DNA of 64,000 bases from Entoloma clypeatum. Lineage: Eukaryota; Basidiomycota; Agaricomycetes; Agaricales; Entolomataceae. The notes under the pieces were generated by a model. That model was not told where the DNA came from and searched no databases. It was given only the letters and a program-made list of their open reading frames with translations. This document shows, one piece after another, positions 2,564-43,287 of the stretch (position 1 is the stretch's first letter; every line of letters starts with the position of its first letter). A program made the translations under genes and the position numbers. The stretch is from contig OY751489.1 of the NCBI GenBank assembly GCA_963565915.1, positions 2,480,001 to 2,544,000 on the forward strand, written 5' to 3'.

Positions 2564-3401
2564 GGCAGTAAGATTGTATGGTGTGCTTGGGACGCCGAGT
2601 CGCGGCGGCTGTGGGCCAAACTCATATATCAGACAACTCCGGGCACATACAGATCGTTGTTGTAACTCACATTCGATGGTGTCATTATCGGCGTGGCTGG
2701 CTTCTTCCAGGTCGTACTATCGCGTGGCGTACTGGCGAACTCATGAGCATGTGTAAGCTAAGGCGCGAGAAGGACCGAGAACAGACCTGGGGCCAGCTGC
2801 AGCATTCGACGCGTCTCTGTGCTGTGCGGGCACCTTTCTGGGGTATCCATGCATAGCGCTAATGTCGCTCCGATCTCCCCCAGAGATCATGGTGGCTTTG
2901 CAAGTCAGCAGCTGAGGGAGGGGAAGGGATGCATACACAAGTCAGTGGAGTGTCGCCGAAAATAGCAACCGTTGGTGCTGTCGTTTGGCAGCGCGTAAAA
3001 TGCTTATCGTTTCCTCATAATTTTCCATAAGCCCGATGGTATTCACAGATACGTACCATAACCCCTATAATTTATATAAAAGATAGTATAAAGGAATGAC
3101 ATCGCAAACAAAGCGTCACAGAAGCTATTCAATGCGAACGTTCATATGAAACAGGCCTATGCGTAAAGTATGGTCCAAAGCCACGGATGTGAGATGTTAA
3201 CGTCGTGAGGAATATGCAAAGCAATATAATATGTATGTGAGGGAAGATCATGCTATGGAAATTTGGGTTCTAATGGTGAGCTTGAAGGAAGTTTTACGTT
3301 GGTGGATTACGTCGGGATGGCAGATAATAAAGGTTGTACAAAGTCTTTGAGGTCAGGCGTGGCCGTCCTAAAACGCATAATGTAACAAAGATCGAAAACG
3401 T
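2564..3401. other. intergenic region upstream of the SUMO protease gene
   Basis: About 840 bases between the start of the Ulp1-type gene and the stop of the KRE6-like gene. Only short overlapping reading frames occur, none with a recognisable motif. It should contain the protease promoter and the 3' UTR of the KRE6-like gene; the AT-rich part near 3000-3250 fits a 3' flank. Confidence 0.5.
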
Positions 3402-5651: not shown

Positions 5652-5726
5652 CGAGAGGGGAGAGACGACGAGCAGACTGTGCCCGTTTCTCACGTTCAAT
5701 GTATATGTTACATACATACATAACAG

Positions 5727-6827
5727 TCAACATGTCGCAGGATTTACGGCCACGTATCCTCCGTCCACCACCAGCTCCTGTCCGTTCGTGTACCCTCCAG
5801 CACGCGATGACAAGTACAAAGCCGTCCCTGCTATCTCCTCTGGCCTGTGCACTTTAGAAAAATCATTACTTGATGAAACAGGACCACTTACTCTCCCCCA
5901 CGGTTAGCTGGCACCGGTTGCAGGCCCTTCCCTACCTTGTCAACCAAGTCTGCTCCAATGCGATCAAACGTCATCTCTGAAGCCCATACCCCAGGTGCTA
6001 TCGCATTCACACGAACGTTCACACCCTTCACCGCATATTCCGTCGCCATCATCTTCGTCAGGTGCGATGCCGCCGCCTTGGAGCTGTTGTATGCAAACTA
6101 CAACACCCCGTTATATACATCATCTCAGCCGCTTAAGAGGGATGCGTACATGCTCTTGTGCCACCTTGATCACGCCGCTGATGCTCGTGATATTAATCAC
6201 GCTCGAGGACCATCCTTGCACGTCTTGTGACCCCTTGTCGAGAAGACCCAACAAAGCCGACGTGACAAAAAAAATAGAGAACGTGTTGATCGTGTAAACG
6301 TCTCCCCACTGCTGGAACGTCTCGTTGTTGAACAACGCCTGCCCGAGCGTCTCTGCATCCTTTCGTTCAGGTGCCGAGGCGTTCCCGAGGAAAGGCGAGG
6401 TTGGTCCTACCTGACCGGCGCTTTACCAAGTCATTCAACAGGCCAAAACTGCAGACGATCAAATTAACTTACTTGTTGACGAGGATATGTACCTTCCCCT
6501 CTGTCTCCTCAATTTTATTCCTCGCTTCGGTGATGCTCTCCTTGCTCGTCACATCCATCTGCAGCCTAGATAACGGTTGTTTCCCGATTCGGCGAAATTG
6601 AGGGGTGGTGCGACCTACGCAACAATCGTGCCTGCGTCACTACCCTTGCTCTCGTTACTTAAGTCTGCGACTTTCTGGAGAACATCCAAACGTCGCCCTG
6701 TGATATAGACCTTCGCACCAGCGGAGGCAAGACCTTGTGCGATCGATAGTCCGATCCCCGTCCCCCCTCCTGTTACAACGGCTATCCGTCCTGACAAGTT
6801 GAAGATCGTGCGTGGGGGAAGGGACAT
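5727..6827 (-). CDS. short-chain dehydrogenase/reductase (SDR)
   Basis: NAD(P)-dependent oxidoreductase of the classical SDR family; substrate unknown. The ATG at 6827 is followed by the cofactor motif TGGGTGIG at residues 19-26. Later exons carry QMDVTSKESI (6470-6560), NITSISG with the catalytic Ser (6120-6335), and YNSSK with the catalytic Tyr and Lys (about 6080-6105). Then come NVRVNAIAPGVWASEM (about 5960-6020) and the typical C-terminal LVVDGGYVAV before the stop at 5727. At least four introns of about 50-70 nt join these pieces in frame. Length (about 300 residues) is normal for the family. The final Asp-Gly-Gly-Tyr and the PG motif fit cytosolic 3-oxoacyl-ACP-reductase-like or sorbose-reductase-like enzymes, but no specific reaction can be claimed. 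Confidence 0.88.
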
Positions 6828-23697: not shown

Positions 23698-24229
23698 GCT
23701 TGTCAAGCTTGCTCCTCTGTCTCCAACTTTCCGACCACGGCCTGACCACTGACGATCATGTAATTCGCATGCACTTGTTCTGTTATTCTATATGACTACA
23801 GTGAAGACTTGTATCCTTGGAAGTTGCGACTGATATACTTAGCCTTTACTTTATTAATTTCATGGGGGACATAGTACTTTCACTGTCAGTTCGTTGAGTT
23901 CGGGTGACACTGGCACTGCGTACATGGGTTTTGCGGCAATTGCTGCGGAGGATCGGGGCAGATGACTTACTTCACTCCACCACCTTCTCCCGTGCTCCTA
24001 AGTCAACCCATTTCTGCACCAGCTGAGGTGGCGAAAGCCACGAAGACAAACAAATCATCAAAGGGAAAGGCCAAACCCAACTTCACCGTACTGTGCCATT
24101 TCAATCAATTCGTCGGGCCTGTGACGCGTGACACGGTGCGACGAAATTCACTCTTATAATACTGGTTGATCTGGTGCCTCAACCAGTTATATTAGGCTTG
24201 TTTGCTCTTATCCTCGACACCAGCGGAAA

Positions 24230-24238
24230 CTATCACTC
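24230..24238. repeat. left target-site duplication of element E
   Basis: CTATCACTC; identical to 41995-42003 on the right of the element. Confidence 0.85.
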
Positions 24239-24368
24239 CAGGCTCCTGAACCATCCGCTCGAGGGGGAGGAAGGATGTGCGATATCTTATCCGAGTATGA
24301 CTAATTTATTTGTTCATCCAAATATTTACACGTACAAACAAAACTGAACATCCAACCTCCCCCATGAG
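24239..24368 (+). repeat. outer half of the left TIR of element E
   Basis: Inverted copy of about 41866-41994, differing at a few bases and small indels. The arm continues at 35286 after insertion X. Confidence 0.88.
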
Positions 24369-24599
24369 TAGGGTTGCGGAAAAAACCCTCTGTTTTTTAC
24401 CAGACCCCTTTTTTACTGGTAAAAATGGTCACATGCTTGGTAAATTACCCCCTCCAGAATATCACTGGTAAAAAATATACTTCATGTGATACAATTGTGT
24501 TTTTTTTTTTTTTTTTTTTTTTGTTGTCAACAATTTGTATAGCGGTATACTAGGGGTACAGTCCGCTTGACATAGAGTAAACTACATCGATCCGAGGAT

Positions 24600-27234
24600 C
24601 TACATACGCATGAAGAACAAGCGGCGCAAAGCTCTGTCAAGCTGATAAGTCCTCGCACCAGGACGGGGGAGTCTGTTATAAACAAACACATTAGTATGCG
24701 CACCCGAATATTCGGCCGTGCGATACAAGAGCACTCCAACCTTGTGAGGTTGGCTGTTGGCGGCGCTGGGGGGTGTCTGCGCCCTACCCCCCAAAGAAGT
24801 GCCTGTGCAGTTCTTACCCTTCGATCGTGTTCGCTTGCCAGAGGGGGCTGCACCCCTTTGTACCCAGCACGCTACCACATGACTACCGCCAACAGTTGTG
24901 TTGGGCGTTGGACGATCCCTAAAGGCAAAGGCCCCTGGGTTGTCCATGATGAATTTCCCGAAGATGTCCCAGATGGGAGTGTTCCTCGAGAAGGTGGGCA
25001 TGTCTGGGGGCCTGGTGGGGTGGTGCAGACATTTGTAGAATACGTGGGCGAAGTCCTCGACGGACCCCGATCCACAGTCACATTGTTCAATTTTGTCGCC
25101 AATATTGAACCTATGTCTGTAGTGGCCAATTGGAGCGTGACTGGTGAGGCTGCGGACCATTTGTGCCGTGAGGGATTGGGAGTGGCCCATGTCCTTAAGC
25201 CAAGTGCTGCCCTTAAGGTGGGACAGCTTCATTCGTTTGGCCCGAGCGTGGTCTTGTCATCTGACGCACGATCTCGGGAATTGATAGTGACGGCCAACAT
25301 ACTTTGGGGACTGGTACAGGTTGTTCCACTCGCTGAGCATGTCATCGGTGAATTGCTTCGTGTTGAAGTCAAGGGATCTGGAGGCCGACTCGCCACATTC
25401 GATGCGAATCGAGGAGGCGAAGTCGTGCACTACACGGTGGGGTTCAAAGCCATGGTCCGAGCAATCAGGGACATGGTGGAAGAACACCTTAGATTTCAGA
25501 CCTGGTTCCTCAAACCAAGGGACCAGGTTGCTGATGATGGCGAGCGCAGTTGCCTGTGAGGAGTGGAGATCCGGGTCAGTGGCACGCCGGATGGCGTTGA
25601 CCGAGTCGGTAAAAATGTGGATTTCTTCCAGTTTGGAGAGACCCCCTAGCAGACTGACCAGGTTGGAGAACCCATGTCTGATGGCTAAGGTTTCAGTGTC
25701 ATCAGAGACTGCGAGGCCACCAGCCGCCCAGTCTTTGTTGATGGAGTATCCCATGTGCCAGGTTTCCCAAGCTGCAACAGCTTGATGGCCCGACATTAGG
25801 GAGGGAACGGCCGCGTCAGTGACAATGACGGTGGATTTGTTAGAGCAGATGTTGGCATCGAACACCTTGTTAAGGGTGATGAGGCGCAGCTTCCTGGCTT
25901 CGGCTCGCTCCTTAGCGGTTTTGCTGCGGATAAGAGTGATGTCGTGGATGATACGGTCAGGGAAGCGGTCTAGGACGCGTTTCCCTGGCTCGTTGTAATT
26001 GTTGAAGGGTGATAGGGGGACAGTCACGTTTGCACGGTATGCCCAGATATCGATGAGGGGGGATTTAAGATTATACATAAATTCTGGGGAGTACCATGGT
26101 CGTTTTGAGGGGTCTTCCTCATCGCATACCATGACTGTCATGTGTCGGGGTGCAAGAGAGTGCATACGGACACAGTTTCTGCAGGAGAGCTTCTTTAGGT
26201 ACAGGTGCACCGGGGGCAGACTGGCAAGGGATTCGACCGCCCCTGTGGGGGTGGTACAGAAGGTGCCCAGAATCCACAGGGCTGCGCGCCGCTGGACTCT
26301 GGAGATAGACTTGATGACTTCCTTGTTACGGGCACCATCAAAGTTCCATATATTAGCACCATACAGGGCGATCGGTAGGATACACGATCAGTATAGGGTG
26401 TGTTTGTGCTTGGGCGTAAGTCCTCGAACTGAGTTACCCAGTGATAGTAAGGCTCCCGTTGCAGAGAAGGCCTTAGTGGCATATCATTTAGCATGCTTAG
26501 TGAAGAGTAGCTTTCAATCAAAGAAGAAGCCCAGGTATCTCCAGAAGGTCTTGGGAACAAGAGGGGAGTCGCCGGTGAAGGGCGCGTATCCTAGGTCAAC
26601 CGGGGGGTTATTGTCACCATTCTTTCTGGAGAAATGGAACGCCTCTGACTTGGAGTGCTCAAGGACTAGCCCTAGGGCTGAGGTCAACTCAAACAGACAC
26701 TTGTATGCCTTTTTTAGTTTGGCAAGGTTTTCTTTCCATGTCTCAGATTGGACTATGATGGTTCCGTCATCCACATAAGAAATGAGGCTAGCCTGTGTCA
26801 GTTCAGCATGGAACACGTACATCAACGGGGCGAGATAGATGGATGATAGCACAGGAGACAGGGCAGAGCCCTGTCCTACGCCAATATCCACAGAGAAGAG
26901 GTCTGAGAGGTCATCCTCCCAGGCGTATTGGGTTTGCCTTCCTATTAAATAATTGGAGAAGAACTCCATGACAATGTCGGGGAATCCCATCCTATCTGAT
27001 ATGAGCGAGATAACCGAGTGGTTAAGAGAGGGGAAGTATTGTGCCAAATCGATGGCTACAACGCTCGTCTTGAGTTTCCTTGACCACGAATGAGGTGGGT
27101 GAGGAATTGTCCGGCGTCTTCAGTGGAGTTCTGTCAAACCCCTCCGAATTGACCTGGGTGTAGCAGTCCATAGCGGGTGAGTTCCCACTGCAGTCTGTTA
27201 GCTATAGCTTTCTCAAATAGTTTGCCCAGGGTGT
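24600..27234 (-). pseudogene. LINE reverse transcriptase, RNase H and C-terminal zinc finger, broken
   Basis: Continues the LINE ORF2 left of the chromovirus: LGKLFEKAIANRLQWELTRY, QYFPSLNHSVISLISDRMGF, GVGQGSALSPVLSSIYLAPL and the catalytic YVDDGT. Then an RNase H domain (VTDAA, ETLAIRHG, IFTDSVNAI) and a C-terminal CDCGSGSVEDFAHVFYKC finger. The frame is broken by TGA codons at 27134-27136, 26514-26516 and 26388-26390 and by a frameshift near 27085. Each TGA sits where an Arg codon is expected, consistent with CGA to TGA. The copy cannot make a working enzyme. Confidence 0.85.
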
Positions 27235-27668
27235 TGTAAGGGCGACCTTACGATCCAAGACTCAAACTCAGATACTTGCAAGGGAGATCCGAAGTTTAGA
27301 TTGAGCAGTCTAATAAGTAATACAACACATACCTTGCAAGGGAGATCCAAAGAGAAAGTTCTAAGGATTCCCCTGCAAGCTAGCTGCGATAAATAGTAAA
27401 ATGAGATATGAAATAAGAGATAAAACGAGACGCATGAATGATGAGCAATGATCGGGAGTAGCGATGAAGGATGAATGGAAACAAGATGAATGATAGTACC
27501 TGCGATCCGACGTGCGGAGTAGCGGATGGGGGCGGAGTCGTCGGATGCGGAGAGGCGGATAAGATGTCGGAGACAGCGGATACGATCGGAGGACGTCGGA
27601 GATGGTGGAATAGAAAGGAAAGGAGGAAAGTAAAGGAAAAGTGAAAAGTGAAAGTGGTTGCCCTTACA
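27235..27668 (-). repeat. 3' LTR of chromovirus copy 1
   Basis: 434 bp, no difference found from the 5' LTR by direct reading. TG...CA ends. Confidence 0.95.
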
Positions 27669-27679
27669 TCACCCCCCCT

Positions 27680-30600
27680 TCAAGGCACGGCGTCTCGATG
27701 TGTCAGGCGAAACGAGTCGAATATCGCGGCGGCGATCCGCTGCGGAGCTCCCAGATGACGTCGGTAGAAGTCGCGGACTAGGCGCGGAGCATGGACATTG
27801 TCTTCTGCTTCCCAGGAATTCTCTTCGTAGCCATATCCCTTCCATTTGACCAAGAATTGAAGCTTGCCTCGATGCAGTCGGCTGTCCAAGAGGTTTTCAA
27901 CATCGTACTCTAATTCTTCTCCGACTACCGTCGGAGGCGGAGGAGAGCGGACTTGGCGTCGGAAAGGGTCGTCGGGAACTAGTGAAAGTTTGACGACATG
28001 GAATACTGGGTGAACGCGGGACATGGAAGGGGGAAGGCGAAGTTCATAGGCATGTGTTCCGACAGGTCGGACCACTGGGAAAGGGCCTACATATCGATGT
28101 GCAAGCTTTTTTGTGGGTCGGGTGGTTTTGAGGTCTGATGAGTCTAAAAAGACCTTGTCCCCCGGGCGGAATGTCAGAGTGGTGCTCCGATGCTGGTTGT
28201 AGTATCGCGCCATGTCATCTTTTGCCTTTGTCAGTGCTGCGCGAGCCTCCTCTAGAGCGGACTTCATCCGCTGGCTGAAATCCGCTACCACCTCGATTTC
28301 CGTCCGCTTCTCGCGAGGTTCGAATCCCATGCGCGGATGGCGGCCGGTGTCAATGTAGAACGGAGTTTGACGTGTCGATGCGTGAACATGGTTGTTGTAT
28401 GCAAATTCAGCCATCGGAAGCCATTCGTCCCAATCGTCTTGACGTTCATTGACGAATAGGCGAAGGTATTGTTCTAATCCTTGATTGACCCGCTCTGTCT
28501 GTCCATCCGACTGCGGATGGTAGGCTGTTGAGGCAGCAACCTTAATGTTAAGCAGCCTGTATAGTTCGCGCGTGAACTTGGCAACAAACTGTGGTCCTCG
28601 GTCGGAGACAATGGCCTCCGGTAGTCCATGGAGTTTCCAGACATTTTGAACATAGGAGCGTGCAGTCCCAAGTGCAGAGATGTCGGAGTGCATCGGGATG
28701 AAGTGTCCCCGCTTCCCTACTGAGTCCACTACGACCATGATAGCGTCGTAGCCATGGGCTTCTGGTAGTTCAGTAATGAAGTCAACACTGGTTACTTGCC
28801 ATCGCTCTGTGGGGACCGGTAGCGGATTGAGCTCTCCGGAGGGCGGAGTGTGTCGGACCTTGGTGCGGAGGCAAGGGTCACATGTCTTGCAATATTGACC
28901 TATTAAACAAGACATGTGCGGCCACCAGTAATTGCGCGACACCAGTTCCAAGGTTTTCCACCGTCCAGGATGTCCGGCCACCGGAGTGTCATGGTGTTGT
29001 GTGAGGATCCGATGACGCAGTTGGGGATTGTTAGGAACATAGATACGATCCCTGAAGTAGAGCAAACCTTCCGCTTGCCTCCACTCCGCACTACGGACGG
29101 ATCCCGCTCCGACGGTCGGAAGGGATTTGACAACCTCCGCCACATTATCTTCCAGTAACCCCTCTCGGATTCCCTGTCGGACCTGGCGGAGGACGTCGCG
29201 TTCTTCCCCTTGAACAGTTACCCCCCGCATTGCTCGCACTGCAAACAATTCTGGTCGCAGAAGGATGATGTTTTCGTTGTCCCGCGATCCGTCTCCGTGG
29301 TCCGCTCGTCGGGACAAAGCGTCGGACTTGCCCATTGACTTGCCAGGTCGATGGTGCATTTTGAAATCGAAACGAGCGAGGTATAAGGACCATCTAGCCT
29401 GTCGTCGATTTAGTTTTTGAGCTGTCATGAAATACTCAAGATTTTTGTGGTCCGTCCAAATCTCCACTGTCTTCTCCGCTCCTTCAAGGAAGTGCCTCCA
29501 CTCCTCCAATGCGCGGACCACTGCCAACATCTCCTTGTTGTAGATCTCGTAGTTGCGTTCCACCGGACTAAGGCTTTTGGAATAGAATGCGACAGGGTGC
29601 CACTTACCGTCCTCTGTTGGTTGGGACAGTACTGCTCCGGTTGCAAAGTCCGAGCTATCTGCTTCTATCCGCCACTTCTTTCCATGATCAGCTAAGACCA
29701 GGATCGGAGCGGATGTAATCCTCCGCTTCAACTCCGCAAATGCGGACACTTCTCCCTCCTTCCAAGACCAGAGGTGCCCTTTCTTTGTGAGCTCGAAAAG
29801 AGGGCGCGCGATGTCCGAAAACCCTTCAATAAAACGGCGATAGAAGTTAGTGAATCCTAGAAAGGACTGTACTTCTCGGACGTTTATCGGAGCAGGCCAC
29901 TCCGCGACCCCCGCTACCTTCACCGGATCCATCTCTACGTGTCCTTGTTCAATAATAAGGCCTAGGTATTCAATGCGCGTTTGTTCAAACTCGCATTTCT
30001 CTGGTTTTAGATAGAGTTTGTGTTCGCGAAGTCGTTCCAGTACGATCCGTGTGACTCTCCGATGCTCCGCAAGGGTCTCCGTGAAGATGAGTATGTCGTC
30101 GAGGTAAACACAGACTACACCTTCAGTGATAAGGTCCTGAAAGATTTCGTTCATCATAGTCTGGAATGTGGATGGACTATTAGTGAGGCCGAAGAACATC
30201 ACCAATGGTTCATAGAGTCCGCGATTGGTCCGAAAAGCAGCCTTCCACTCGTCTCCGGGTTTTATCCGCACATTGTTGTAGCCCCAGCGGATGTCGAGCT
30301 TGGTGAAGTATTGAGCGCGTTGAAGTTTATTGATCAGTTCGGATATGAGCGGAAGCGGATACTTGTTTTTGATAGTTTTGGAGTTGAGTGACCGGTAGTC
30401 TTGTACAAGACGAAGGGAGCCATCCTTCTTCTTGATGTAAAATACCGGAGATGCCATCGGAGACTTGGAAGGGCGGATTCGACCAGTTGCAAGGTTTTCC
30501 TCCAAAAACGCGTCGAGTTCCTTCTGTTCATTCGGAGCAAGTGGATATACCTTACAACCCGCCGGAGAGGCGTCCGGAACAAGTTCAATGGCGTGGTCCC

Positions 30601-31747
30601 AAGTCCGCTCTTCCGGTAAGGTGTCAAAAGAGGTCTTTGAGAATACGTCTTCGAAGTCAAACAAGTGGTCTGGTACAGAGTCGCGGAAAGATTTAGGTTT
30701 TTGGTTACTGAGGAAGGCCTCCGATAGACGTTGTGAGATATTGGATGAAGCACGGATGAACTCCGCCTCCGCAGGTACTGTTCCGACAAAAAGGCGGTCT
30801 CCCTCCTCAAACTCATCCTCTTCCTCCTCATTATCCGCTAACTCCTCCGCTTCCTCTCCTTCTGTGACATCCTCCACCCATGGGCCACGTGGAGCCTCCT
30901 CCTCTAGACCGGACGTCGGAGTGGAACCCATCCGACAGGCTCGGATGCGGACTTGTTCAAACTTCCGCTCCTTCCGCTCTTGGGCTGCCTCCTGGTGGCA
31001 TGTCCGACATCGTGCAGGACACCGGCTCATCTTCACTTCCCCTGATGTCCAATCTACCTCGGGGTTGTGTTCCTTGAGCCAAGTGAAGCCTAACATGATT
31101 TCTTGTTTTCCCAAACTTGTGACTGCAAGCTGGGTCCGTTCTGAGTGATCCCGGTAGTGGAGCACTACATCCAACACCTCCGTTATTGCTCCGGCCTCGT
31201 TTGGAGTTCCGTTGATGTTGTATACCGGAATTGCGCGTTGTAGTTTTCGAGTAGAGAGTCGATGTTTCTCGACCAGAGTGCGTTCAATAAACGACCCTGT
31301 TGCCCCGCTGTCGAGTAAGGCCTTTTGTGATAGTGTGTCTTTGGTGTCGGTAGTTTCAAGAACTATGTCTAGTTCAATAGAATTGTCGGAGTGAGCGGAG
31401 GCGAGGACATATTGTTTTGGAAGCCGACACTCCCATTTAGAGAGGCGAAGGCGGATGGGATTTGCGGAGTTGGGTGCGACTATGGGATCGTTTGCAGGCT
31501 TAGAGATGGAGGGTATAGGATCATATTGTTCCATAAATAAGGCAGCATAACGATTTTTAGCAGACAACGAGGGCGCACTGTTCACTCGCTGTGGGGAGGA
31601 AAATCCTCCTGTCCTCCCTCCGACTCCGCAGACTCCGTGGGCGGAACGGAGTTGCCTTCCGCTGCGTCCTTGACCACGAGTTGTTCCATAACAAACTTGT
31701 CCTGCTCCTCCGTTGTCATGAAGCGAACGTCGAAGCGAAGGGGGCAT
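27680..31747 (-). CDS. chromovirus Pol polyprotein (protease, RT, RNase H, integrase, chromodomain)
   Basis: Open frame of 1355 codons overlapping gag by about 165 bases in another frame, so expression needs a frameshift or re-initiation. Protease: LLDSGATGSFI. RT: the catalytic YLDDILIF block and MFFGLTNSPSTFQ. RNase H: IEADSSDFATGAVLSQ, then the WTDHKNLEYF region. Integrase: the HHCC zinc region ending CKTCDPCLRTK and the core with VDFITELP, IVSDRGPQFVAKF and STAYHPQSDGQTER. C-terminus: a chromodomain, LLDSRLHRGKLQFLVKWKGY then ENSWE. All catalytic residues I can check are present, so Pol looks functional. Confidence 0.93.
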   Translation of the reverse strand: MPPSLRRSLHDNGGAGQVCYGTTRGQGRSGRQLRSAHGVCGVGGRTGGFSSPQRVNSAPSLSAKNRYAALFMEQYDPIPSISKPANDPIVAPNSANPIRLRLSKWECRLPKQYVLASAHSDNSIELDIVLETTDTKDTLSQKALLDSGATGSFIERTLVEKHRLSTRKLQRAIPVYNINGTPNEAGAITEVLDVVLHYRDHSERTQLAVTSLGKQEIMLGFTWLKEHNPEVDWTSGEVKMSRCPARCRTCHQEAAQERKERKFEQVRIRACRMGSTPTSGLEEEAPRGPWVEDVTEGEEAEELADNEEEEDEFEEGDRLFVGTVPAEAEFIRASSNISQRLSEAFLSNQKPKSFRDSVPDHLFDFEDVFSKTSFDTLPEERTWDHAIELVPDASPAGCKVYPLAPNEQKELDAFLEENLATGRIRPSKSPMASPVFYIKKKDGSLRLVQDYRSLNSKTIKNKYPLPLISELINKLQRAQYFTKLDIRWGYNNVRIKPGDEWKAAFRTNRGLYEPLVMFFGLTNSPSTFQTMMNEIFQDLITEGVVCVYLDDILIFTETLAEHRRVTRIVLERLREHKLYLKPEKCEFEQTRIEYLGLIIEQGHVEMDPVKVAGVAEWPAPINVREVQSFLGFTNFYRRFIEGFSDIARPLFELTKKGHLWSWKEGEVSAFAELKRRITSAPILVLADHGKKWRIEADSSDFATGAVLSQPTEDGKWHPVAFYSKSLSPVERNYEIYNKEMLAVVRALEEWRHFLEGAEKTVEIWTDHKNLEYFMTAQKLNRRQARWSLYLARFDFKMHHRPGKSMGKSDALSRRADHGDGSRDNENIILLRPELFAVRAMRGVTVQGEERDVLRQVRQGIREGLLEDNVAEVVKSLPTVGAGSVRSAEWRQAEGLLYFRDRIYVPNNPQLRHRILTQHHDTPVAGHPGRWKTLELVSRNYWWPHMSCLIGQYCKTCDPCLRTKVRHTPPSGELNPLPVPTERWQVTSVDFITELPEAHGYDAIMVVVDSVGKRGHFIPMHSDISALGTARSYVQNVWKLHGLPEAIVSDRGPQFVAKFTRELYRLLNIKVAASTAYHPQSDGQTERVNQGLEQYLRLFVNERQDDWDEWLPMAEFAYNNHVHASTRQTPFYIDTGRHPRMGFEPREKRTEIEVVADFSQRMKSALEEARAALTKAKDDMARYYNQHRSTTLTFRPGDKVFLDSSDLKTTRPTKKLAHRYVGPFPVVRPVGTHAYELRLPPSMSRVHPVFHVVKLSLVPDDPFRRQVRSPPPPTVVGEELEYDVENLLDSRLHRGKLQFLVKWKGYGYEENSWEAEDNVHAPRLVRDFYRRHLGAPQRIAAAIFDSFRLTHRDAVP

Positions 31748-32742
31748 TCACGACTAAAGTGACCCGTTTTGTTACATCTGAAGCATGCATTGGCATTCTT
31801 GCCTTTGACGCGTGAAGTATCAATGTCCATTGCATTGGGGTCCCTTGTCGGCGGAGACGGAGCGGATGCGGATGCGAGCGGAGCTGTGCGTGGAGTGAAT
31901 GGAATGTAGGGGCGAGGGAATACTGAGGTGCCAGGTACTCTTGGTCCGACAACATTGCGGAAGGCGGAGGTACGGGTCGGAGCAGTGGCTTTGAAGGCTT
32001 TGTTGGCAATCCTATTGTCATCATTGACTCGTGCTGCAGAGTACCACTCATCGGGGTTGTCATCCGCAGGTCGTCCATGGGTCAGGGTGGCAATCTCGTT
32101 CTGAATGTCGGAACGGAGACCATGGCGGAATTTGAGTACGATGTTGGTATCCTCCTGGTAGCCCGCTTTGTCAATGTAGTCTTTGAACTCATCAATATAG
32201 GTCTCGACATCCCGTTGACCTTGATAATAGGATTCTCCTTCGAGGATCAGTCTCGCGTCCTGTTCCTCATTCTTCGGAGTGAACTCCGCTGTAAAGACTG
32301 CACGGAAGTCCACCCAAGTCCGATAAGGCGGAGCACCGGTCCTCCGCTCCTGTCAGATAATGCGATCCGCAAAGCGTGCTGCACGTCCACTCTTCATGAA
32401 AGATAAAGCCCAATAAATTTTAGCATGGTCATCTGCGAACTGTTCCGGAGCCAGCCCCATAAACAATTCACAGGAGTTTAGAAAGGTCTAGCCATTTGCG
32501 CGCAGTCCATCAAAGTCCGACGGATTGGCAGGTTTTGCTCGACGCATGCCCGGATTGGCCGGAGCGATCGGAGCAGGTATAATAGCGGGTGCGGGAGCAG
32601 GTGGGATAGGTGGCGGAGCTGGGGCAGGAATTGCGTTGAAGGCAAGGAGGAGTTGGTCAAGTTGAGTCGAGATATCAGCGAGAGTTTGACGTTGTTCCTG
32701 GAACTCGTGCTCGAGCTGTTCAAGGCGATTGGGGTCGTCCAT
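31582..32742 (-). pseudogene. chromovirus Gag, interrupted by two stop codons
   Basis: The ATG at 32742 begins MDDPNRLEQLEHEFQEQRQT, then a Pro/Ala-rich stretch. The capsid-like region continues through FLNSCELFM and VDFRAVFTAEFTP, and ends with a CCHC knuckle (CFRCNKTGHFSRECPL) and an acidic tail. Two in-frame stops break it: TAG at 32488-32490 and TGA at 32353-32355 (the latter where CGA would encode Arg). The downstream part (from about 32313) remains open. A copy with these stops would need Gag from elsewhere. Confidence 0.88.
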
Positions 32743-32891
32743 TACTATGCGCGGAGCAGAATCACCAGTTACGGAGAGGTAGTTAGAAGAACTGGAAGGG
32801 GTGTGAGATGTATCGGAGTCGGATGCAGACGAAGCTGCTCCGAAGCGCGGAATCGTGACAACGATGCAATCGGACCCGGTCCAATTAGAAG

Positions 32892-32901
32892 AGAACTTTC
32901 T
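32892..32901 (-). promoter_or_regulatory. predicted self-priming primer-binding site, copy 1
   Basis: Two bases inside the 5' LTR the minus strand reads AGAAAGTTCT. Its exact complement AGAACTTTCT lies in the LTR at 33022-33031. There is no TGG start as in tRNA-primed elements. This fits Tf1-type self-priming by the transcript's own 5' end. Confidence 0.6.
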
Positions 32902-32903
32902 AC

Positions 32904-33337
32904 TGTAAGGGCGACCTTACGATCCAAGACTCAAACTCAGATACTTGCAAGGGAGATCCGAAGTTTAGATTGAGCAGTCTAATAAGTAATACAACACATA
33001 CCTTGCAAGGGAGATCCAAAGAGAAAGTTCTAAGGATTCCCCTGCAAGCTAGCTGCGATAAATAGTAAAATGAGATATGAAATAAGAGATAAAACGAGAC
33101 GCATGAATGATGAGCAATGATCGGGAGTAGCGATGAAGGATGAATGGAAACAAGATGAATGATAGTACCTGCGATCCGACGTGCGGAGTAGCGGATGGGG
33201 GCGGAGTCGTCGGATGCGGAGAGGCGGATAAGATGTCGGAGACAGCGGATACGATCGGAGGACGTCGGAGATGGTGGAATAGAAAGGAAAGGAGGAAAGT
33301 AAAGGAAAAGTGAAAAGTGAAAGTGGTTGCCCTTACA
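32904..33337 (-). repeat. 5' LTR of chromovirus copy 1
   Basis: 434 bp. The predicted transcript start is near 33031, where the minus strand reads CCTTAGAACTTTCT. Confidence 0.95.
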
Positions 33338-33339
33338 GG

Positions 33340-34165
33340 TGTTTAGGAGCACTTCGGAAATAATAGCCTCAGGAGAGGCATTCTTTCGTGGGCCGACCCA
33401 GGAGGTAAGGTCCCAGGGACGCTTGTTTTTGTTGGAAACTTCGTCAATTTTTTTGTCAAAGAAGTTCCGTTTAGCAGTGCGAATGATTTTGTGCATATCG
33501 CGCCAGTCTTGGTCTGTCTTACCCGAGTTGGAATAGGTGCGCCACCCGGCCTTGCAGTCCTTATCCCACCAGCCCTTCGACTGGAACGAGTCCCGGGGAG
33601 AGCGAGAGAATTCGGTCCACTCGGCCATGATGAGCTCCTGTACCTTCTGGGTAATACTAGTGATGTCCTCCCTAGAGGTCATAGCCGGAATAGGGATGGA
33701 GGCAATGGATTCCATGAGTGCCGACAGGAAGTGAGTTTCCTCCTCCGAGTCTGGTACTATACGGTAGTGTTCCTTCGCGTTAATGAGGGGGGATCTGAGA
33801 AGGGTGATAATCGAACGGTGGTCCGACTCGTCTGGGCTCCCAAGTTTGATGACCGAGTCTTTGTCCATGTTAGGGATGAAGACCAGGTCAATAATGGACG
33901 GGGCATTGTTGTTCTTAGGGAAGTGGGTGAACCCAGTCCTATGATGAACAAGACCATGAGCAAATGCGAAGTCTGAGAGGAGAGACACATTGTGGTTGTG
34001 GCGCATCACTTCAGGGTCCCATAGCAGCGAGGGGCAATTAAAATCACCGCCTAAGTACCAAATGGGAGGGAGGGATGTTCCAAGGGTGGCAAGGATGCGG
34101 ATGGCCGTGCCCTGCAAATCCGAGTAGGCATTGATTAGGTTGATCTGGCCCTCGGGGACAGACAA
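33340..34165 (-). pseudogene. LINE endonuclease domain (N-terminally truncated)
   Basis: AP-endonuclease-like domain of the LINE ORF2. Visible motifs are IWYLGGDFNCPSLLWDP, SIIDLVFIP and SDHRSI (the catalytic SDH). The N-terminal catalytic Asn/Glu strands are missing because the element is 5'-truncated. The linker towards the reverse transcriptase ends at VLLNT, where the chromovirus has inserted. Confidence 0.82.
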
Positions 34166-34247
34166 CGAAAGTAGGTGTGATACAATTGTGCTAAATTTTC
34201 AACACGACATACATAGAGTTCCAATAGCATTGCCTTCTCCTTGAACT

Positions 34248-35139
34248 ATGGCAACATCAATTCCTGAAGATATTTTCTCCAAGCTTCTCCCTGATTCTCC
34301 ACTCAATGTCATTGCTCTCCTCAAGTTTCCCACACCTCCAACCAAGCCTGCACCGACCATCAGATACAAGGCCAACTTATGGTCAACTGCCCTGGGTTTA
34401 TAGTTTTTATATTGGTCTAACTTCATATTACTCCTCTAGCGTATCTTAGTTCTGACCTATTTAAAGAGGACACTGCTCGCTACGTCTACAATCCCTCACA
34501 AGATAGCAGAATTGACCTCACAGGAATCCGGCATTGCAAAATATTTACCAAGGTTGCCAACTATCTCATCACCGGTATTACAGAAAAAGAAATCTATCAT
34601 GGACATAAGCCAGAGCTAACAGTGTGGAAGGGCAAAGCTCGAGGATTCAAACAACAGCTTGTGGCCAAGCTCGGGAGGTATGCTCGTGGCCAGTACCCTT
34701 ACAACCATACAATTGCCTCTCTGTTGCGTCAATGACAGCAATGACTCAAATATGGCAGTATCATCAAACTGAGAAAAAAGCATTCAAGTTTCGAGGAACA
34801 ACAAACTTACCATTATTATAGACAAGGAAAGGTCCAATCTGTCGGAAGTTGGTCTATTACAGTGACATAAAGAGCGCCGGAGGCAAGCCCTTGCACACTA
34901 ATGATGAAGACCACAATGATTCATGGCTAGACGAGACGCTGAGAGCGACAAGTTCCGGGGGAGAGTTTGGCCTTGATGCCGAGAGTGAGCCCTGGGTGAA
35001 TTTCAAATTGAGTTTCCTGGCACGAGTCTTGGCTGAGGAAGGCTCTGTTGAGGTTGCGCAAGGCGCCCTTGCCTCCACAGAGGTGCCAGTGGCTGCGGAG
35101 GATGGAGACGACAACGATTTTTTGGGGATCTTTAGTTAG
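34248..35139 (+). CDS. unrecognised multi-exon gene inside element X
   Basis: The ATG at 34248 (MATSIPEDIFSKLLPDSPLN) starts a frame to about 34395. Further coding-like pieces follow at about 34438-34680 (LSSDLFKEDTARYVYNPSQD and FTKVANYLITGITEKEIYHG) and 34849-35139, which ends acidic (DGDDNDFLGIFS). The reading style suggests spliced exons, but I cannot fix every junction. No motif is recognised, and it lacks hAT transposase signatures. It may be a host fragment captured by X. Confidence 0.4.
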
Positions 35140-35285
35140 AAAATGCCGTTTTGGGGTGCACGTGACCATAACATGACCGGTAAATTACCAGTAAAAAAAC
35201 TTGAAAAAACCCCTCTATGGTAGACTAGTCATGCGCTCGGTAATTTACACCCTCAAGGGGTTTTTTCCGCAACCCTACTCATGAG

Positions 35286-35416
35286 CGGCTGGCAAACTTG
35301 TCAATCACATGACTTTCAGACATCACGGAGAACAATGCAAACCTCTGCAACAACATGGTAAACCTATCCTAGGGCTTATTCTTTCCCTCTAAAATAGTCA
35401 TTTGATTCAATGTCAC
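35286..35416 (+). repeat. inner half of the left TIR of element E
   Basis: Inverted copy of about 41185-41317 plus 41858-41866. A 13-14-nt gap relative to the right arm lies near 35390. Confidence 0.88.
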
Positions 35417-35465
35417 CATCACCTCGTTTTCTACCCTTAGGGATATCATCAAAGCTTTTTTAAGC

Positions 35466-36045
35466 ATGTCCCAACCAATGAAGTGGAACACCAAAACAAT
35501 TTGCGAGCTGGTCCAGGCCAAATTTGGAAAACACGCATGCTGGTTCCAAATCCAGGTCGCGCTGAACCTGTATGCAGGACAAGATGTAGTCACGTGTGCA
35601 CCAACAGGGGCAGGGAAGACCCTCTCCTTCTGGATGCCCCTTTTAATGGCCCTCACAGATGGAAAGGATAAGATGACATTTGTGGTTACACCATTGAATA
35701 TCCTGGGGAAGCAGAATGAGGACATTCTTGAGGATGCGGGACTGCCAGCAATTGCTGTTAGTGCTGAGAATGCCAATGAAGAGACCTTTAAAGTGAGTTA
35801 GGTGTCATTTTCTGAGAAACACATTGACTTACTGTTATTAGGATATCAAGAGCGGGAAATATCATGTTGTTATTGTCAACCCCAAACTCATGATGTCAAA
35901 ACATGCAATTGAAAGATGGTGGAAACAAGCGGTATTCACGAAGCACATTTTAAACATCATCTTTGATGAAGGGCATTGTGTGAAGGATTGGGGTGCCTTT
36001 CAAAATGAGTACCTATGCCTTGGGGATTTGCATCACATAGTGGCA
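35466..36045 (+). pseudogene. RecQ-like ATP-dependent DNA helicase, N-terminal part
   Basis: The ATG at 35466 begins MSQPMKWNTKTICELVQAKF. Walker A is CAPTGAGKTLSFW, followed by the motif Ia region MTFVVTPLNILGKQNEDILE. An intron at about 35794-35841 joins to DIKSGKYHVVIVNPKL. Walker B is IIFDEGHCVKDWG, with DEGH where RecQ has DEAH. The frame ends after NEYLCLGDLHH, where a different gene fragment starts on the other strand; motifs III-VI and the RQC/zinc region are missing. The start lies only 50 bases inside the left TIR of E, so transcription could start in the TIR. Confidence 0.75.
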
Positions 36046-36941
36046 ACAACAATTGCGCCATTTGCATATTCGCATTCGATGCGAAATACAGCCTTGGAGC
36101 TATGCATTGGATGCAGGCTATCACTCACGCGTATTCGCAGACGGTGCAATAGAATAGGAACTCGGCGATGATTCTTTTCATTGCGTTCGAACCACAGCCG
36201 CGGCATCAGGGTTGCAAGTCCCCCCGAAATAAGTTCATCTGTTATGTTGACTTGGTTGGAAACAACCGCAGAACGATCTTGGGTTGAAGTGCTTTGCTCT
36301 TGCGAGATAATATGGGGTATGAGTAAACGCAAGCGGCGCCATCTGGCGTGTCCAGCCCTGGTCCCAGGCACAGGCATCCCTATTAAAAGGGCAGGTCGCA
36401 CGCTAGGCTTACTTGCCATACTGCGATTCTCAGTATAAGTGCTCCCCGATTGCTCAATACATTGGGAGGGCCGTGCACCACCTGAAGCGTCATGCTGGTC
36501 ATGAGATTCTGCTGCCCCCGGGACACCAAAGTCAAATTCAGGTCGCTCGGCTTTTGGCGATTCATGAAACCAACACCTGGGGCTCCATCCTTCGTCTCGA
36601 CTCTCCCGTCTCTTGCCTTTTTGGTCTGCGGGCTCGGTGGGGCTGATATATTCCAATGCACCGCGAAAGTCCGAAGTTGGCAATGCGAAACTGTATCCCG
36701 CATCGACGTCTGGAGGTGCTACATCTTCCTCTTCCAAGTTGCTATCCTTTTTAGATCTTGAAGTTGCGATTGAAAGAGAGTAGGCAAAAGACAGGGAGCG
36801 AGGGGGACCAGTCCTCTGCGAGGGGGAGTCCTGAATGGATTTGAATTGGGTCGAATGTGGACGTTGGTGCTTCTCTGTGTCCATTACGCCACCATTGAGT
36901 GGATGTACGTGGTGGACACCAGGAGGGATGACGGTGGACAT
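36033..36941 (-). pseudogene. captured N-terminal fragment resembling fungal phospholipase D1
   Basis: Uninterrupted 302-codon frame from ATG 36941. The distal part (VNITDELISGGLATLMPRLW, RVPILLHRLRIRVSDSLHP, AVFRIECEYANGA) resembles, from memory, the PX-domain region near the N-terminus of basidiomycete PLD1/Spo14. The match stops abruptly at ANGA, where the helicase gene ends from the other side, so 36033-36060 is a junction. No HKD catalytic motif is present. The open frame suggests a recent capture. The family call needs a search. Confidence 0.5.
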
Positions 36942-37042
36942 GGTGGAGGAAACAGCCGACTCAATGACATCACAGACAGTAGCAGATGATATTTACACCA
37001 AGTTTAGGTACTCCTCTGCTCAACCGGCAGTCAATCAACTGC

Positions 37043-37429
37043 CTAGAACAAACCTCCTGCGCAGAACAGCCCTTCGACCACCAATCGCCCAAATGTGAAT
37101 GTAATCCCACAGGCCACTTTCAATGCCATGAACGGTGCCTTGATGCCCGATTTGTTTACGGGGGCGTCACTTGCATTGCAACTCCCCATGCTGACCTCGA
37201 TGGCGTGTTGCAATTCCAAGCTGTCGCCAAGAAGTTTCCTTTCTTCACCAACCCTTTTCCCGCTAGTCTTTTCCGACAACTCTTCCAGGTTGTCAGTGAA
37301 GATCTTCTCCACAACGCCTTCACAGTGTGCCCGGTTACTTTGGTATTCCCTACCTGAAAGACGAACCAATAGAGCCTGCATACTATCACCTACCATAAGG
37401 TCGGCATGGCTGTGTCGTTCGTCAGTCAC
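37043..37429 (-). other. unrecognised coding-like frame inside element E
   Basis: A 128-codon frame with a plausible protein reading (ALLVRLSGREYQSNRAHCEG, VVEKIFTDNLEELSEKTSGK) but no ATG at its start and no known motif. It may be another captured fragment between the helicase and DUF6589 remnants. Confidence 0.3.
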
Positions 37430-37676
37430 ATGAGGTCACAAGTTCACACTCTGCTATCAAGTGGCGCATGTCCATGTGATACTTTGTTTATAGCATCAGG
37501 AAAAGGCCAAACCAACTTAAACAAACCCAAAGAAAAAGTTAAGTGGTTTAAGTTATTTAAGCTAAGTCAGCATCTTAGAACTACTTGAAATCATGTTTTT
37601 TCTCAGATAAGATGTTCAAGCTTGAGTCCGTAAATCTATCTAGGAGAATATTTCATAGGTCTAGGAAAGGTCTAAA

Positions 37677-38450
37677 TGTAAATGTTTTCTGTGTTATATA
37701 CCATTCTGGCTCCAACAACCTCTGATCATCTCCGATCAATTCCGATCAATTCCGCTCCAATGATCTCTGATCAATTCCGATATTCCGGACATCCATTCAT
37801 TACCTCCGCACCTCTGCACGTTGCCATCTTGCATTTCATATTCATAACTCCATGCCTTTATGCATTTCATATTCATATTCCCGTTTACTTATGCATTGCC
37901 TTTTCCACATGGTCCGTTGACCAACATCTCTGATGTTCGTTACAGTCGCTGGCAACTTATGCCACAACTCCGGACCTACTCCGACCATCTCCGTAAAGTA
38001 ATCACATTTAGATATTTAAGCTCATACCATACCTGTAGTTCCTCAGTTTGAATATCAACCAAGTTCACTCCTCTACTCTCAGTCCATGCCAGAGATCCTC
38101 GCCGTGGTACAATACGCCGACGACATCCTCATCTTCTGCTCTTCCTCCATCATTACCCTTCGACGAGCTCAGTACTGTGTCTGAGTCACAACTCCGACGT
38201 CGTCCAACCACTTCCATGTCAGCGTGTCTCTCACTGAGATCTCTCCGAGGACCTCCGCACCTCCGACCTCTCCTCCGCACCTCCTGAAATTGGGACACCT
38301 TATCCAACAAATGGCAGCGCAACACATACGTTGAAGCCACATCCCTCCCCTTCATTGTTCCTCCCCATTTCCGGAGTTCCGCTCTGGTCTCAGTCCTACG
38401 TCCGACCTCCGACGGACTCCAACGAAGCTCCGACATTTCACCTACTTAAC
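37677..38450 (-). repeat. possible LTR-like segment inside element E
   Basis: CT-rich, with many repeats of TCCGA/CCGATC like the chromovirus copy 1 LTR, though not homologous base for base. The minus strand begins TGTTAAG at 38450 and could end ACATTTACA at 37677 (TG...CA), but no 5-bp duplication was found. Confidence 0.25.
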
Positions 38451-38497
38451 ATTGGCAGCACTTTGGATGTGGAGCGTGTGGTGCTAGAATCAATGTG

Positions 38498-38752
38498 ATG
38501 GCGATATTTTTTGTTGAAAAGAAGAATGTCAAGGAAGAGCAGACACTCAAGGCAGAGCGTGCTGCAAAAAAGAAGCAGAAGGTCAAGGAGAGAATAGGAA
38601 CGGGGAAAAAAAGAAAAGCCATGGATGACTCAACTTTACCGCCACCCAAACAACCTGCACTGCTCACCAATCAAACAGCTCCTGTCAATTGGGACACCAA
38701 CACAAAAAACTACCACACCCAACGAACATGTGGTCGGATTTGGCCAACATGA
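38498..38752 (+). other. short lysine-rich frame in element E
   Basis: Encodes a basic, Lys/Glu-rich helix (LKAERAAKKKQKVKERIG). The codons just upstream read CGACGARIN, a Cys-pair arrangement. It might be the C-terminal tail of the helicase gene whose middle was lost; that is inference only. Confidence 0.25.
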
Positions 38753-38947
38753 CTCATGAGGCTATTGCTTTCCTGTTGGCCTTGTTTGGGAAGGATGAAG
38801 ATCCTCCAGATCGCATCGGCACATGCCATCTTTAGGTGAATGTAACAGTTTGTTACGGGGGTGAGCTTCCTTAGTCCCACAAGTGCATAAGACCCATTCT
38901 ATAGCTGAGATAGGGCAGATACAACATAGTGGTAGACAAGGAGAAAG

Positions 38948-40954
38948 CTAAGGAAGTGGCTGTGCTATGTGTAAGCAATGATACCCAGTGCATCCGTTAC
39001 AGTGAAATAGACCCACGACAGGAACAACGAACTGGAAGCATTGCCATGGCGTGGCTTCCACGGATTGAGACTTTGTGAGGCTGCGGATATGCTGTACAGT
39101 GAGTAGATCTCCACAAACAAGAATGACATAATTCTTCAAGCTTTTTGCCCCGGGGTTCTCGTTTGGATTGCCTATGCCTGACTGCTGCAAAATTTGCTCC
39201 ATGGCATCCACATTTTCAGCAGGGGTGCTCGGTTTGATATCCATAGCACACATGGGAATTTGTGAAGTCTTTGTAAGTGGAATCTGATCGATAATCTCTG
39301 GATTGCGCAATTGTTCACGGAACCTGCGGAAGGCCTCAGGCCCAAAATGAACAAGATAATATAAGATCTTCCAGGCATTGAACCGCTGCCTGCACCAAAG
39401 ACCAGATGGGTGGCACTCGGTGTCTGGATACACCTCTTTGAGGAGTTTTTGTATTGGAATTTGGCTGTTACCTTTAGCGCGTAGCTGGTTCCAGAGTGAT
39501 TCAGAGCAATCAAGATCTTCAAGCAAGACCCCATGCTCCAGTGGCAGCATTGTCGCAGATGTAGGGTGAATAAGCGTGTCATTGGGTTTATCGACAGTGG
39601 GGATGGAATGTTTAAGATCAATGTCAAGATTGTCAAAAGCATATAGGGTGAGAAAGGTTCTGCCGTACTTTTGCATGCACTGATCAGACCCCTTCACAAG
39701 GTTATTGATGGCTTCGTTTATTGCAGTTGTTGAGATAGATAGGCCAATGTGGGTGAGGAATTCACATACAGTCTCGGGTGTCCCACATGACTGTGTGAAG
39801 ATGCCGACAAGAGTTTGAAGGGCATTGCACCGACGGTTTGTACTATTCATCATAATGCTCAGGCATGTAAGTTTCTTCTGTCGGCCAATGTCAGATGAGA
39901 TATAAGCTAATCAATCATCACTTACCATTGTACAGAGAATTCTTTCCCGGTCTTCAACTGTATTGGAAGGGCCTGTCTGCTGTGCCATGGTTTCTTCATT
40001 TAAATCCTCCATCTTTATATCCCCATCACTGTAAGGGCAACCACTTTCACTTTTCACTTTTCCTTTCCTTTCTTCCTTTCCTTTCTATTCCACCATCTCC
40101 GATGTCCTCCGATCGTATCTGCTGTCTCTGACATCTTATCTGCCTCTCTGCATCTGACGACTCCGCCCCCATCCGCTACTCTGCACGTTGGATCGTAGGT
40201 ACTATCATTCATCTTGTTTCCATTCATCCTTCATCGCTACTCCTGATCATTGCTCATCATTCATGCATCTCGTTTTATCTCTTATTTCATATCTCATTTT
40301 ACTATTTATCTCGCTAGCTTGCAGGGGAATCCTTAGAACTTTCTCTTCAGATCTCCATTGCAAGGTGTGTGTTGTATTACTTATCAGACTGCTCAATCTA
40401 AACTTCGGATCTCCCTTGCAAGTATCTGAGTTTGAGTCTTGGATCGTAAGGTCGCCCTAACAATCACGTAGCTTGCCCAGATGTTTCTGCTGCTTGACAA
40501 GCATCTTTGTTCTGTTACGCTGCCACTTGTGCCTCTGCACGAGTGCATGTTCAGCAGATAGCAGATTGTCAAGTAGAAACCAGAGCCTTGGTGCGATGTT
40601 CTTCATTTTTTCTGCCATGGCTGTGAGGTTGGCATCATCTAACCATGTCTCCATAGTTTTTGTCGCAAGAAAATGAAAACTGGCATCTAGATGCGTGATT
40701 TGCATGAGTTCTGTTGTGTATGAGATTGTTATGGCCTGTGTTGCAGAACCCAGGACAGCATCCCTTGTGTCATTCTGGTCCAACAACACATCAATTAATT
40801 CTGGAATATCTGTGATGATACTTCTCGTAATGTTGTAGATTCGGTTGGTGTTGGTGTGTAATAAGGCAATGATGAAATCCACAGGGGATATAGAGAGCTC
40901 AGAGAAGACATTGAGAATATACTCAATGATTGGATCAGTTGGGGTTGACATCAT
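38948..40954 (-). pseudogene. DUF6589-type protein, truncated and split by a solo LTR
   Basis: The ATG at 40954 starts an exon to 40463 (SELSISPVDFIIALLHTNTN). A solo LTR sits at 40030-40462. Coding resumes to about 39927, then an intron of about 70 bases, then MMNSTNRRCNALQTLVGIF, CEFLTHIGLSISTTAINEAI, LYAFDNLDIDLKHSIPTVDK and PVVGLFH. These blocks match, from memory, the DUF6589 family expanded in Agaricomycetes, whose role is unknown. Homologues continue past GLFH; here the match ends near 38990. The gene starts next to the right TIR of E and is transcribed inward. Confidence 0.65.
40030..40462 (+). mobile_element. solo LTR of the copy-1 chromovirus family
   Basis: 433 bp, in the opposite orientation to the copy 1 LTRs as drawn, with 5-bp duplication ATCAC at 40025-40029 and 40463-40467. 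The differences from the intact LTR are mostly CpG to CpA. It formed by LTR-LTR recombination after insertion into the DUF6589 gene. Confidence 0.93.
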
Positions 40955-41184
40955 CAAATGTGGATGGTAATTCCATCATGGAAGGCAATGGTTTAAATAC
41001 GGTTTAAATACCAGAAAACCACAAATAAACGATGGAGTAGGAGTGGACAAAATGGTGGAAATGTGGATACAACCACAGAGTAAATCTCCAAGTATGTAAA
41101 CTACTTGGTATCAAGTATGTGAGTCTGTCCACCTCTGAGTTGGAATCTGAGATCTTGATTGACATCTGGACAGGACACATTGAT

Positions 41185-41994
41185 GTGACATTGAATCAAA
41201 TGACTATTTTATTGAGTTACATGAGGGAAAGAATAAGCCCTAGGATAGGTTTACCATGTTGTTGCAGAGGTTTGCATTGTTCTCCGTGATGTCCAAAAGT
41301 CATGTGATTGACAAGTTTAGTGTTTGAGGGTTCAGTCTTATGAACTGGAAAATGAACCTGAACTGGACTGGACTGGACTGGAAGAGACCTGAACTGGCGG
41401 TTCAGGTCTCACTGATTTTGAGCTCAACCAGTCTCCAGTCTCTCCAAATTTGGAAAGAAATTGGACTGGTTCACCCCCAGTTCTAGTTTTGGGTCTGAAA
41501 AATATAAACTGGTTCCAGTTTTTGACCATATATTCATTTCAAAACTGTACTTTTATGGGCAAGAATGTTCTTTCATACAGTTTTCAATCATTTTTACAAG
41601 AGTTTATATCCAAAATGCTTGAGAAACATGTTATTGATAACAAATTGAGTATATTTTCAAGTTTTTGATTGAAAAAACAGGCTTTTATAGATGGTGGAGG
41701 ATTTTACTAGTTTAAACTGGTTTAAACCAGTCTTTACCAGTCCAGTCCAGTTTTTTCAGACTTTGAGAAAGAAAAAAAAAGAACTGCCAGTCTCCAGTTC
41801 ATCAAATTTTTGGTCAAAAAACTGGACTGGACTGAACCCTTAAACACTAGACAAGTTTGCCAGCCGCTCATGGGGGAGGTTGGATGTTCAGTTTTGTTTG
41901 TACGTGTAAATATTTGGATGAACAAATAAATTAGTCATACTTGGATAAGATATCGCATCCTTCCTCCCCCTCGAGCAGATGGTTCAGGAGCCTG
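41185..41994 (-). repeat. right TIR of element E (split by a MITE at 41318-41849)
   Basis: Without the MITE and one copy of its duplication, this arm is about 270 bp and matches the joined left arm in inverted orientation. Confidence 0.88.
41318..41849. mobile_element. hAT-type MITE in the right arm of E
   Basis: Ends TAGTGTTTGAGGGTTCAGTC and inverted GACTGAACCCTTAAACACTA. 8-bp duplication GACAAGTT at 41310-41317 and 41850-41857. 532 bp, no coding capacity, interior filled with CCAGTCCAG/ACTGGACTGG-like subterminal repeats. Same family as the element at 54364-61496. Confidence 0.88.
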
Positions 41995-42003
41995 CTATCA
42001 CTC
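41995..42003. repeat. right target-site duplication of element E
   Basis: CTATCACTC directly after the inverted end GGTTCAGGAGCCTG. Confidence 0.85.
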
Positions 42004-42068
42004 CAGCTCTGGCGAACCTCACCAAGTCCCTCACATCACCCAATGTTTGTTTGGCATCAGCCTCCACT

Positions 42069-43287
42069 GTGAGTGACTTGTTGACTTGTCAACAGAGAAA
42101 CCCCACCCATCAATCAATCCCCATCAACAATGCCTAGGACCCATTTCCACCATCTCTCACAGCCTCCATGACACACTGAATGATGTCTACGCCCCTTCCC
42201 GCCACCTCCATCCTCACACCTTCCCTCCACCTCCCCCTGCTCTCCTATGCCTCGGACTTCATCCCCCACCATTGTATGAGTCTATACACACTAGGTAATG
42301 GCATAGGTAGTCTATAATACATCTCTACATACATGTAACATCAACACCACCCCACTCCCCTCATCTACATATCTATACTATCATCTATATACATGTATAC
42401 CTACTCTAATACATAGTATGATATACTATGACTAATTTCCAACCAACTCCCTTGGGCAGAGATGAGTGAATAAGCTAAAAAAGCGGTCAGGGACTGGGGA
42501 ATGAGGAGGAGCACATACCTCTTCTTGAGATACTGGCCTCCCCAGCCAAGGTGTTACATGTGTGTTAGTTATAGACATCAGCAAAGTAGTCCCAGGGCTT
42601 GTAGCAAACCATAGCAAATACACTCACGTGCATAGCAGACATAGTACTGTGTAGCAACCTCACTGGCAGGCATAGCAATGTAGTACTAAAGCACCATAGC
42701 ATTGTAGCATCATAGTACCATAACATTGTAGTATAGAAACCTGGTAGCACCATAGTGTTGTATTCTCATAGGCTTTTGTAGCACTCAATATTTTTGACAC
42801 TCTTGCCAAACTCTTGCATACCATGAAGGAAGAGGTGTTTTTTCTCATTCCTAAAAAAGACTCATAGAAAGGTACATTGTATAACCATACATGATGAGGT
42901 GTAAGGTATATCTACAGAATTCACGGAGGAAGGTGGCAGCCCTCATTGTGCCGCGTGGTCGCATACTAGTACCTCAATCAAATGGGCCTGATTCGGCTGC
43001 GCGCACCATGTGCTAGACTGGCCGCGGTTCGGTGCGTGGTGTCATCAAACATAAACCTAAACATGAGGTTCTGAGGTTCGGGTTCGGGTTCGAACCGCGG
43101 TTCGATGTGAAAAAATGCGAAAAAGGGAGGTATGGGTTAAAAAAGGTTCTTTCCCATGCTCCGAGAAACCGTAGACATACATTGACAGGCGTGAAAAGAC
43201 GTGGATGTCACGTAGAAGGCCCCCCGCCCCCCGCCCTCATCATAACCTACTACATTTCCTTCATACTCGTCACTCCAGTCTGTTTTG
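42069..43287. repeat. non-coding repeat-rich stretch with CATAG motifs
   Basis: No gene seen. AT-rich to about 42540; then 42560-42790 carries many CATAGCA/CATAGTA units, and 43030-43110 carries GGTTCGGGTTCG repeats. Similar CATAG units recur at 52130-53210. Confidence 0.5.

Follow-up and report, generated by a model that had tools for sequence, protein, structure and literature searches.

A decayed two-gene DNA transposon in Entoloma clypeatum, probably of AcademH type, with DUF6589 as candidate transposase

What kind of transposon carries a RecQ-like helicase gene and a DUF6589 gene that point inward from its two ends? The question is raised by Element E, which spans 24239-41994 of a 64,000-nucleotide stretch of Entoloma clypeatum DNA (C8:2480001-2544000, hereafter the window) in a 60-Mb genome, to which all genome-wide searches refer. 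We propose, with a probability of about 0.85, that Element E is a two-gene AcademH-type DNA transposon, present here as a decayed copy with an internal deletion, in which DUF6589, a Pfam family of unknown function, would serve as the DDE transposase, AcademH being compared by its published description. A first-pass annotation of the window had described an unassigned transposon type; its observation is confirmed and its interpretation partly supported, the mechanism being largely right and the type of transposon already described.

Boundaries and gene content of Element E

Element E is flanked by CTATCACTC on both sides (24230-24238 and 41995-42003), a perfect 9-bp target-site duplication and the sole perfect match among flank lengths of 2-12 bp. 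With two later insertions (24367-35279 and about 41318-41849) subtracted, its terminal inverted repeats (TIRs) each total about 262-268 bp, which bears out the long TIRs and perfect duplication noted in the first pass. The left TIR begins CAGGCTCCTGAACC and consists of an outer half at 24239-24369 (+) and an inner half displaced by the nested insertion to 35284-35420 (+), while the right TIR comprises an outer half at 41867-41994 (-) and an inner half at 41185-41318 (-), separated by a small inserted element. On alignment, the outer halves are 97% identical and the inner halves 90% over 134 columns.

The flanks (24160-24238 and 42004-42080) lie in a dispersed repeat, and the genome has at least nine nearly complete copies of this stretch. 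When joined with a single target (156 bases), the flanks match nine genome sites over 155-156 bases, at 94-98% identity and without a change in span, among the 32 matches listed. The three empty sites that were aligned are gapless and hold the target once, with one or two bases different from CTATCACTC; the sequence between the two CTATCACTC copies was therefore inserted as one unit, duplicating 9 bp. These nine full-span paralogous empty sites, the recurrence of the outer TIR (at least 28 genome matches) and the terminal pattern (18 matches versus none for its reversed control) confirm Element E as a real unit beyond chance.

Both genes point inward from near the TIRs and both are cut, as first reported. 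The helicase gene starts with an ATG at 35466, about 46 bp inward of the left TIR, and its exon 1 and the beginning of exon 2 (35466-36053, +; DEAD domain match, E 4.4e-11) extend to about residue 190 of the 688 in homologue P0121. An extra stretch at 36055-38451 replaces positions 5407-5940 of L009, the locus of a fuller copy described below, and is followed at 38452-38726 (+; L009 5124-5406) by the last part of the helicase C-terminal domain and the gene sequence beyond it. DUF6589 lies on the minus strand (PF20231, E 1.8e-26) and starts about 230 bp inward of the right TIR. It comprises an N-terminal exon (40460-40951), a piece equivalent to residues 133-441 of homologue P0001 that includes the first two conserved aspartates, 228 and 406 (39002-39967), and a piece equivalent to residues 440-476 (38731-38841). 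The closest named homologues, among 120 of 174 listed, are from the Agaricomycetes Lyophyllum shimeji and Hypsizygus marmoreus.

At 38727-38732 a deletion junction joins the helicase (38452-38726, +) to DUF6589 (38733-38840, -). Alignment to L009 indicates that about 2.45 kb is gone (L009 2676-5123), corresponding to the 3' end of DUF6589 and the C-terminal part of the helicase. In the window copy DUF6589 is thereby lost beyond about residue 476 of the 800 in P0001, and the helicase keeps little of its C-terminal part. With the region holding the inferred catalytic glutamate deleted, the window copy cannot produce a transposase of its own.

Related copies and later insertions

DUF6589 has 14 genome matches at six places, four of which (the window, C11, C15 and C6:1.83 Mb) carry the TIR of the window. 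The C15 copy (L009, about 579-6816) is colinear with the C11 copy at about 91-95%, insertions aside. In the C15 copy, DUF6589 (L009 1064-3750) and the helicase (from about 6606, with homology down to 4269 and an open frame to about 3957) run inward from opposite ends, and the two genes lie tail to tail, about 0.2-0.5 kb apart, filling most of the element. Set against this copy, the window holds an internally deleted derivative of a larger two-gene element, as had been suggested. No copy examined appears intact: C11 contains large insertions, and C15 has stops and a frame change, some of which may be introns. At the C6 copy DUF6589 is present and the helicase was not found by tblastn or by an HMMER-scored search.

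Target-site duplications were counted in 14 paired copies: the window, C11 and C15 copies, four short copies with the TIR of the window (L015-L018, 0.85-1.56 kb), six located via the helicase (L038-L043, 0.85-2.4 kb) and L047 (C15:804868-813017), which was recovered by its terminal pattern and in which neither protein was matched. The six helicase-located copies hold all or part of helicase exon 1 between TIRs of three different sequences, the left ends starting with CAGGCTCCTAAAACC in five and with CAGGCTCCTAAACC in one. A 9-bp duplication is present in 13 of the 14 (nine perfect, four with one mismatch); none of these 13 fits at 8 or 10 bp, with four to eight mismatches at 8 bp. The C15 pair has no duplication, and its left end lies 16.7 kb away behind another insertion. 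Layout and 9-bp duplications recur in further genome copies, and the attribution of both genes to the element itself stands.

The C5 pair at 4539500/4556742 was excluded from the count because it lies inside a 7.8-kb, 99.9% alike inverted duplication (L010 and L011, C5:4539043-4557200), where equal flanks prove nothing; the TIR of the window occurs in either arm, and the structure is a recent palindrome or an assembly artefact. Unpaired or broken ends were also left out (L019-L024, the C6:1.81-1.83 Mb copy, L033, C6:464764 and C14:3869994, and the single ends C1:3538616 and C14:3923507), and comparison for TIR pairs at L044/L048 (C14) and L049 (C1) gave none. By eye, the left duplication ends in C in nine of 13 copies and begins with G in six (window, L014/L045, L015-L018, L038-L043, L047), a possible weak target preference of the form G.......C. 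The helicase fragments of L038-L043 have no inner stops, with open frames of 133-177 amino acids; all or part of this exon thus persists in nonautonomous copies.

The gene pair extends beyond this TIR family. The genome has a further, divergent DUF6589 gene (C8:1102264-1104399, +), and about 1.5 kb beyond it, tail to tail, lies a divergent helicase (C8:1105865-1106635, -; 25% identity to P0121, E 1.8e-10; PF00271, 1.1e-5), which was missed by tblastn with the joined helicase query and recovered by the HMMER-scored search. Judged by similarity, this locus (L029 7857-8882; L030 237-743 and 2065-2835) is a second lineage of the DUF6589 and RecQ-like helicase pair; a search for its ends gave no convincing TIR or duplication. 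Outside this genome, 12 of 86 helicase clusters sit on contigs of exactly the same size as the contig of a DUF6589 cluster among the 120 listed (174 found at E <= 0.001). In nine of these size-matched pairs both clusters carry one and the same organism name, the shortest named contig being 32,185 bases, and megabase contigs say little about gene distance; the other three are environmental contigs of 6,026, 6,850 and 7,970 bases. Equal size is an indirect sign of a shared contig, and these matches point to the pair occurring in other fungi too. On viral contigs the terminal pattern gave 54 matches, with no DUF6589 relative.

Element E has been lengthened by later insertions. Edge comparison and profile searches place one of them in the left TIR at 24367-35279, with CATG at both edges and containing fragments resembling a long interspersed nuclear element (LINE) together with a Gypsy long terminal repeat (LTR) element. 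The LINE-like pieces, an endonuclease domain within 32900-34195 and a reverse transcriptase within 26514-27116, are both on the minus strand and are interrupted by the Gypsy element; the insertion has inverted ends (AGTAGGGTTGCGGAAAAAACCC), an odd arrangement for a LINE. The Gypsy/chromovirus element (27235-33337) has a GGTGT duplication and LTRs that show no difference across the 300 nt compared, and looks recent. Repeat and alignment comparisons place a solo LTR with an ATCAC duplication within DUF6589 exon 1 (40030-40462, -), and a small element in the right TIR (41318-41849), with short TIRs (TAGTGTTT...) and an 8-bp duplication GACAAGTT, is presumably hAT-like.

DUF6589 as a candidate transposase

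The suggestion that DUF6589 is a candidate transposase was followed up by a fold check, and the model of homologue P0001 has an RNase H-like transposase fold. The first 30 structural matches of this model are DDE transposases or recombinases, although weak in Foldseek, those of hAT, P element and IS256-like enzymes being the closest among solved folds. A DUF6589 profile compared with solved structures gave five matches (best E 1.1), with no transposase among them. Two aspartates, D228 and D406 in P0001 numbering, are invariant in 60 sequences, and E657 is present in 98% of 47; we infer that these three residues form the catalytic triad of a predicted RNase H-like DDE/D fold. The partner protein is a RecQ-like helicase by sequence, a query joined from two copies matching PF00270 (1.5e-23) and PF00271 (1.6e-10), and homologue P0121 is RecQ-like also by fold.

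The fuller layout of the element is about 6.2 kb long, with TIRs of about 260 bp starting CAGGCTCCT and with inward DUF6589 and RecQ-like helicase genes that face each other tail to tail across a gap of about 0.2-0.5 kb. DUF6589 would bind the TIRs, its RNase H-like centre would excise the element in a presumed cut-and-paste movement, and it would join the element to a target site opened by staggered cuts 9 bp apart, giving rise to the 9-bp duplication. The helicase may serve to unwind DNA, probably at the element ends or the target, or to aid processing and repair of intermediates, which is a guess; the biochemistry of this helicase-bearing transposon is not known to have been studied.

The modelled link between DUF6589 and a DDE transposase remains of interest. 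Since DUF6589 occurs inside transposons and beside a helicase, and since its homologue is modelled as DDE-like, proteins of this type in mushroom genome annotations (174 homologues at the threshold above) are best read as transposases and not as host genes. The model also offers a predicted structural view of a helicase-bearing transposon.

Placement among known transposons

The helicase of AcademH elements is RecQ-like. AcademH is reportedly a lineage of the Academ superfamily (Kojima 2020, Mob DNA 11:15). Its members are described as Academ elements that encode a helicase and make duplications of 9-10 bp (PMC10045372, PMC10799480). The first-pass claim that no described superfamily has this gene pair therefore fails, and with AcademH already in print (PMC10045372) "unassigned transposon type" is untenable.

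A placement outside Academ is unlikely. It would make the DUF6589-helicase elements a superfamily of their own, with a Hermes-like transposase bearing long helical insertions (between the first two catalytic aspartates and before the glutamate) and a RecQ partner that two or more divergent lineages retain across Agaricomycetes, the likeness to AcademH being confined to helicase and duplication length. DUF6589 could not be linked directly by sequence to an Academ transposase, and the solved folds nearest to the P0001 model, named above, lie in other groups. The open-access literature searched does not mention DUF6589, has PF20231 only in an unrelated nanophotonics context, links neither to AcademH and has no paper naming both "Academ" and "XPG". 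However, the published AcademH description (helicase, 9-10-bp duplications, Basidiomycota) fits at every testable point. The hAT elements make 8-bp duplications, unlike the 13 copies with 9 bp in the Element E family, and hAT Hermes (PDB 4d1q, 6dwz) shares 14% identity with the DUF6589 model at a root-mean-square deviation of 6.8.

Capture of both genes by a Mutator-like element is highly improbable. Mutator-like elements also have 9-bp duplications and long TIRs, but both genes fill most of the C15 copy, the size-matched contigs suggest that other fungi have the pair too, and the DUF6589 homologue is modelled as a DDE transposase. The outcome that the first-pass annotation had set against its own reading, the same TIRs carrying a Mutator-like transposase, was not seen, since PF10551, the only Mutator profile searched, has three genome matches and none at a TIR copy. 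On this result and the C15 gene content the capture hypothesis was rejected. Least probable of all is a KolobokH element, the fungal Kolobok with a helicase: it shares with Element E a DDE transposase and a RecQ helicase and is known from fungi only, according to PMC9587614, but Kolobok duplications are the 4-bp TTAA, whereas Element E has convergent genes and 9-bp duplications that show no TTAA specificity. KolobokH was rejected by duplication length.

The AcademH placement is thus preferred. By description, both are DDE-type transposons of Basidiomycota that carry a helicase and make 9-bp duplications, and the features compared brought out no difference. The Element E family encodes a helicase, and its 13 paired copies with 9-bp duplications fall within the 9 or 10 bp of AcademH. 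In another mushroom, Marasmius oreades, putative nonautonomous Academ elements are widespread, and autonomous ones were sought with an Academ profile (PMC8290104). The difference in duplication length between AcademH (9-10 bp) and AcademX (3-4 bp) was suggested by Kojima to relate to the encoded helicase versus nuclease (PMC10045372).
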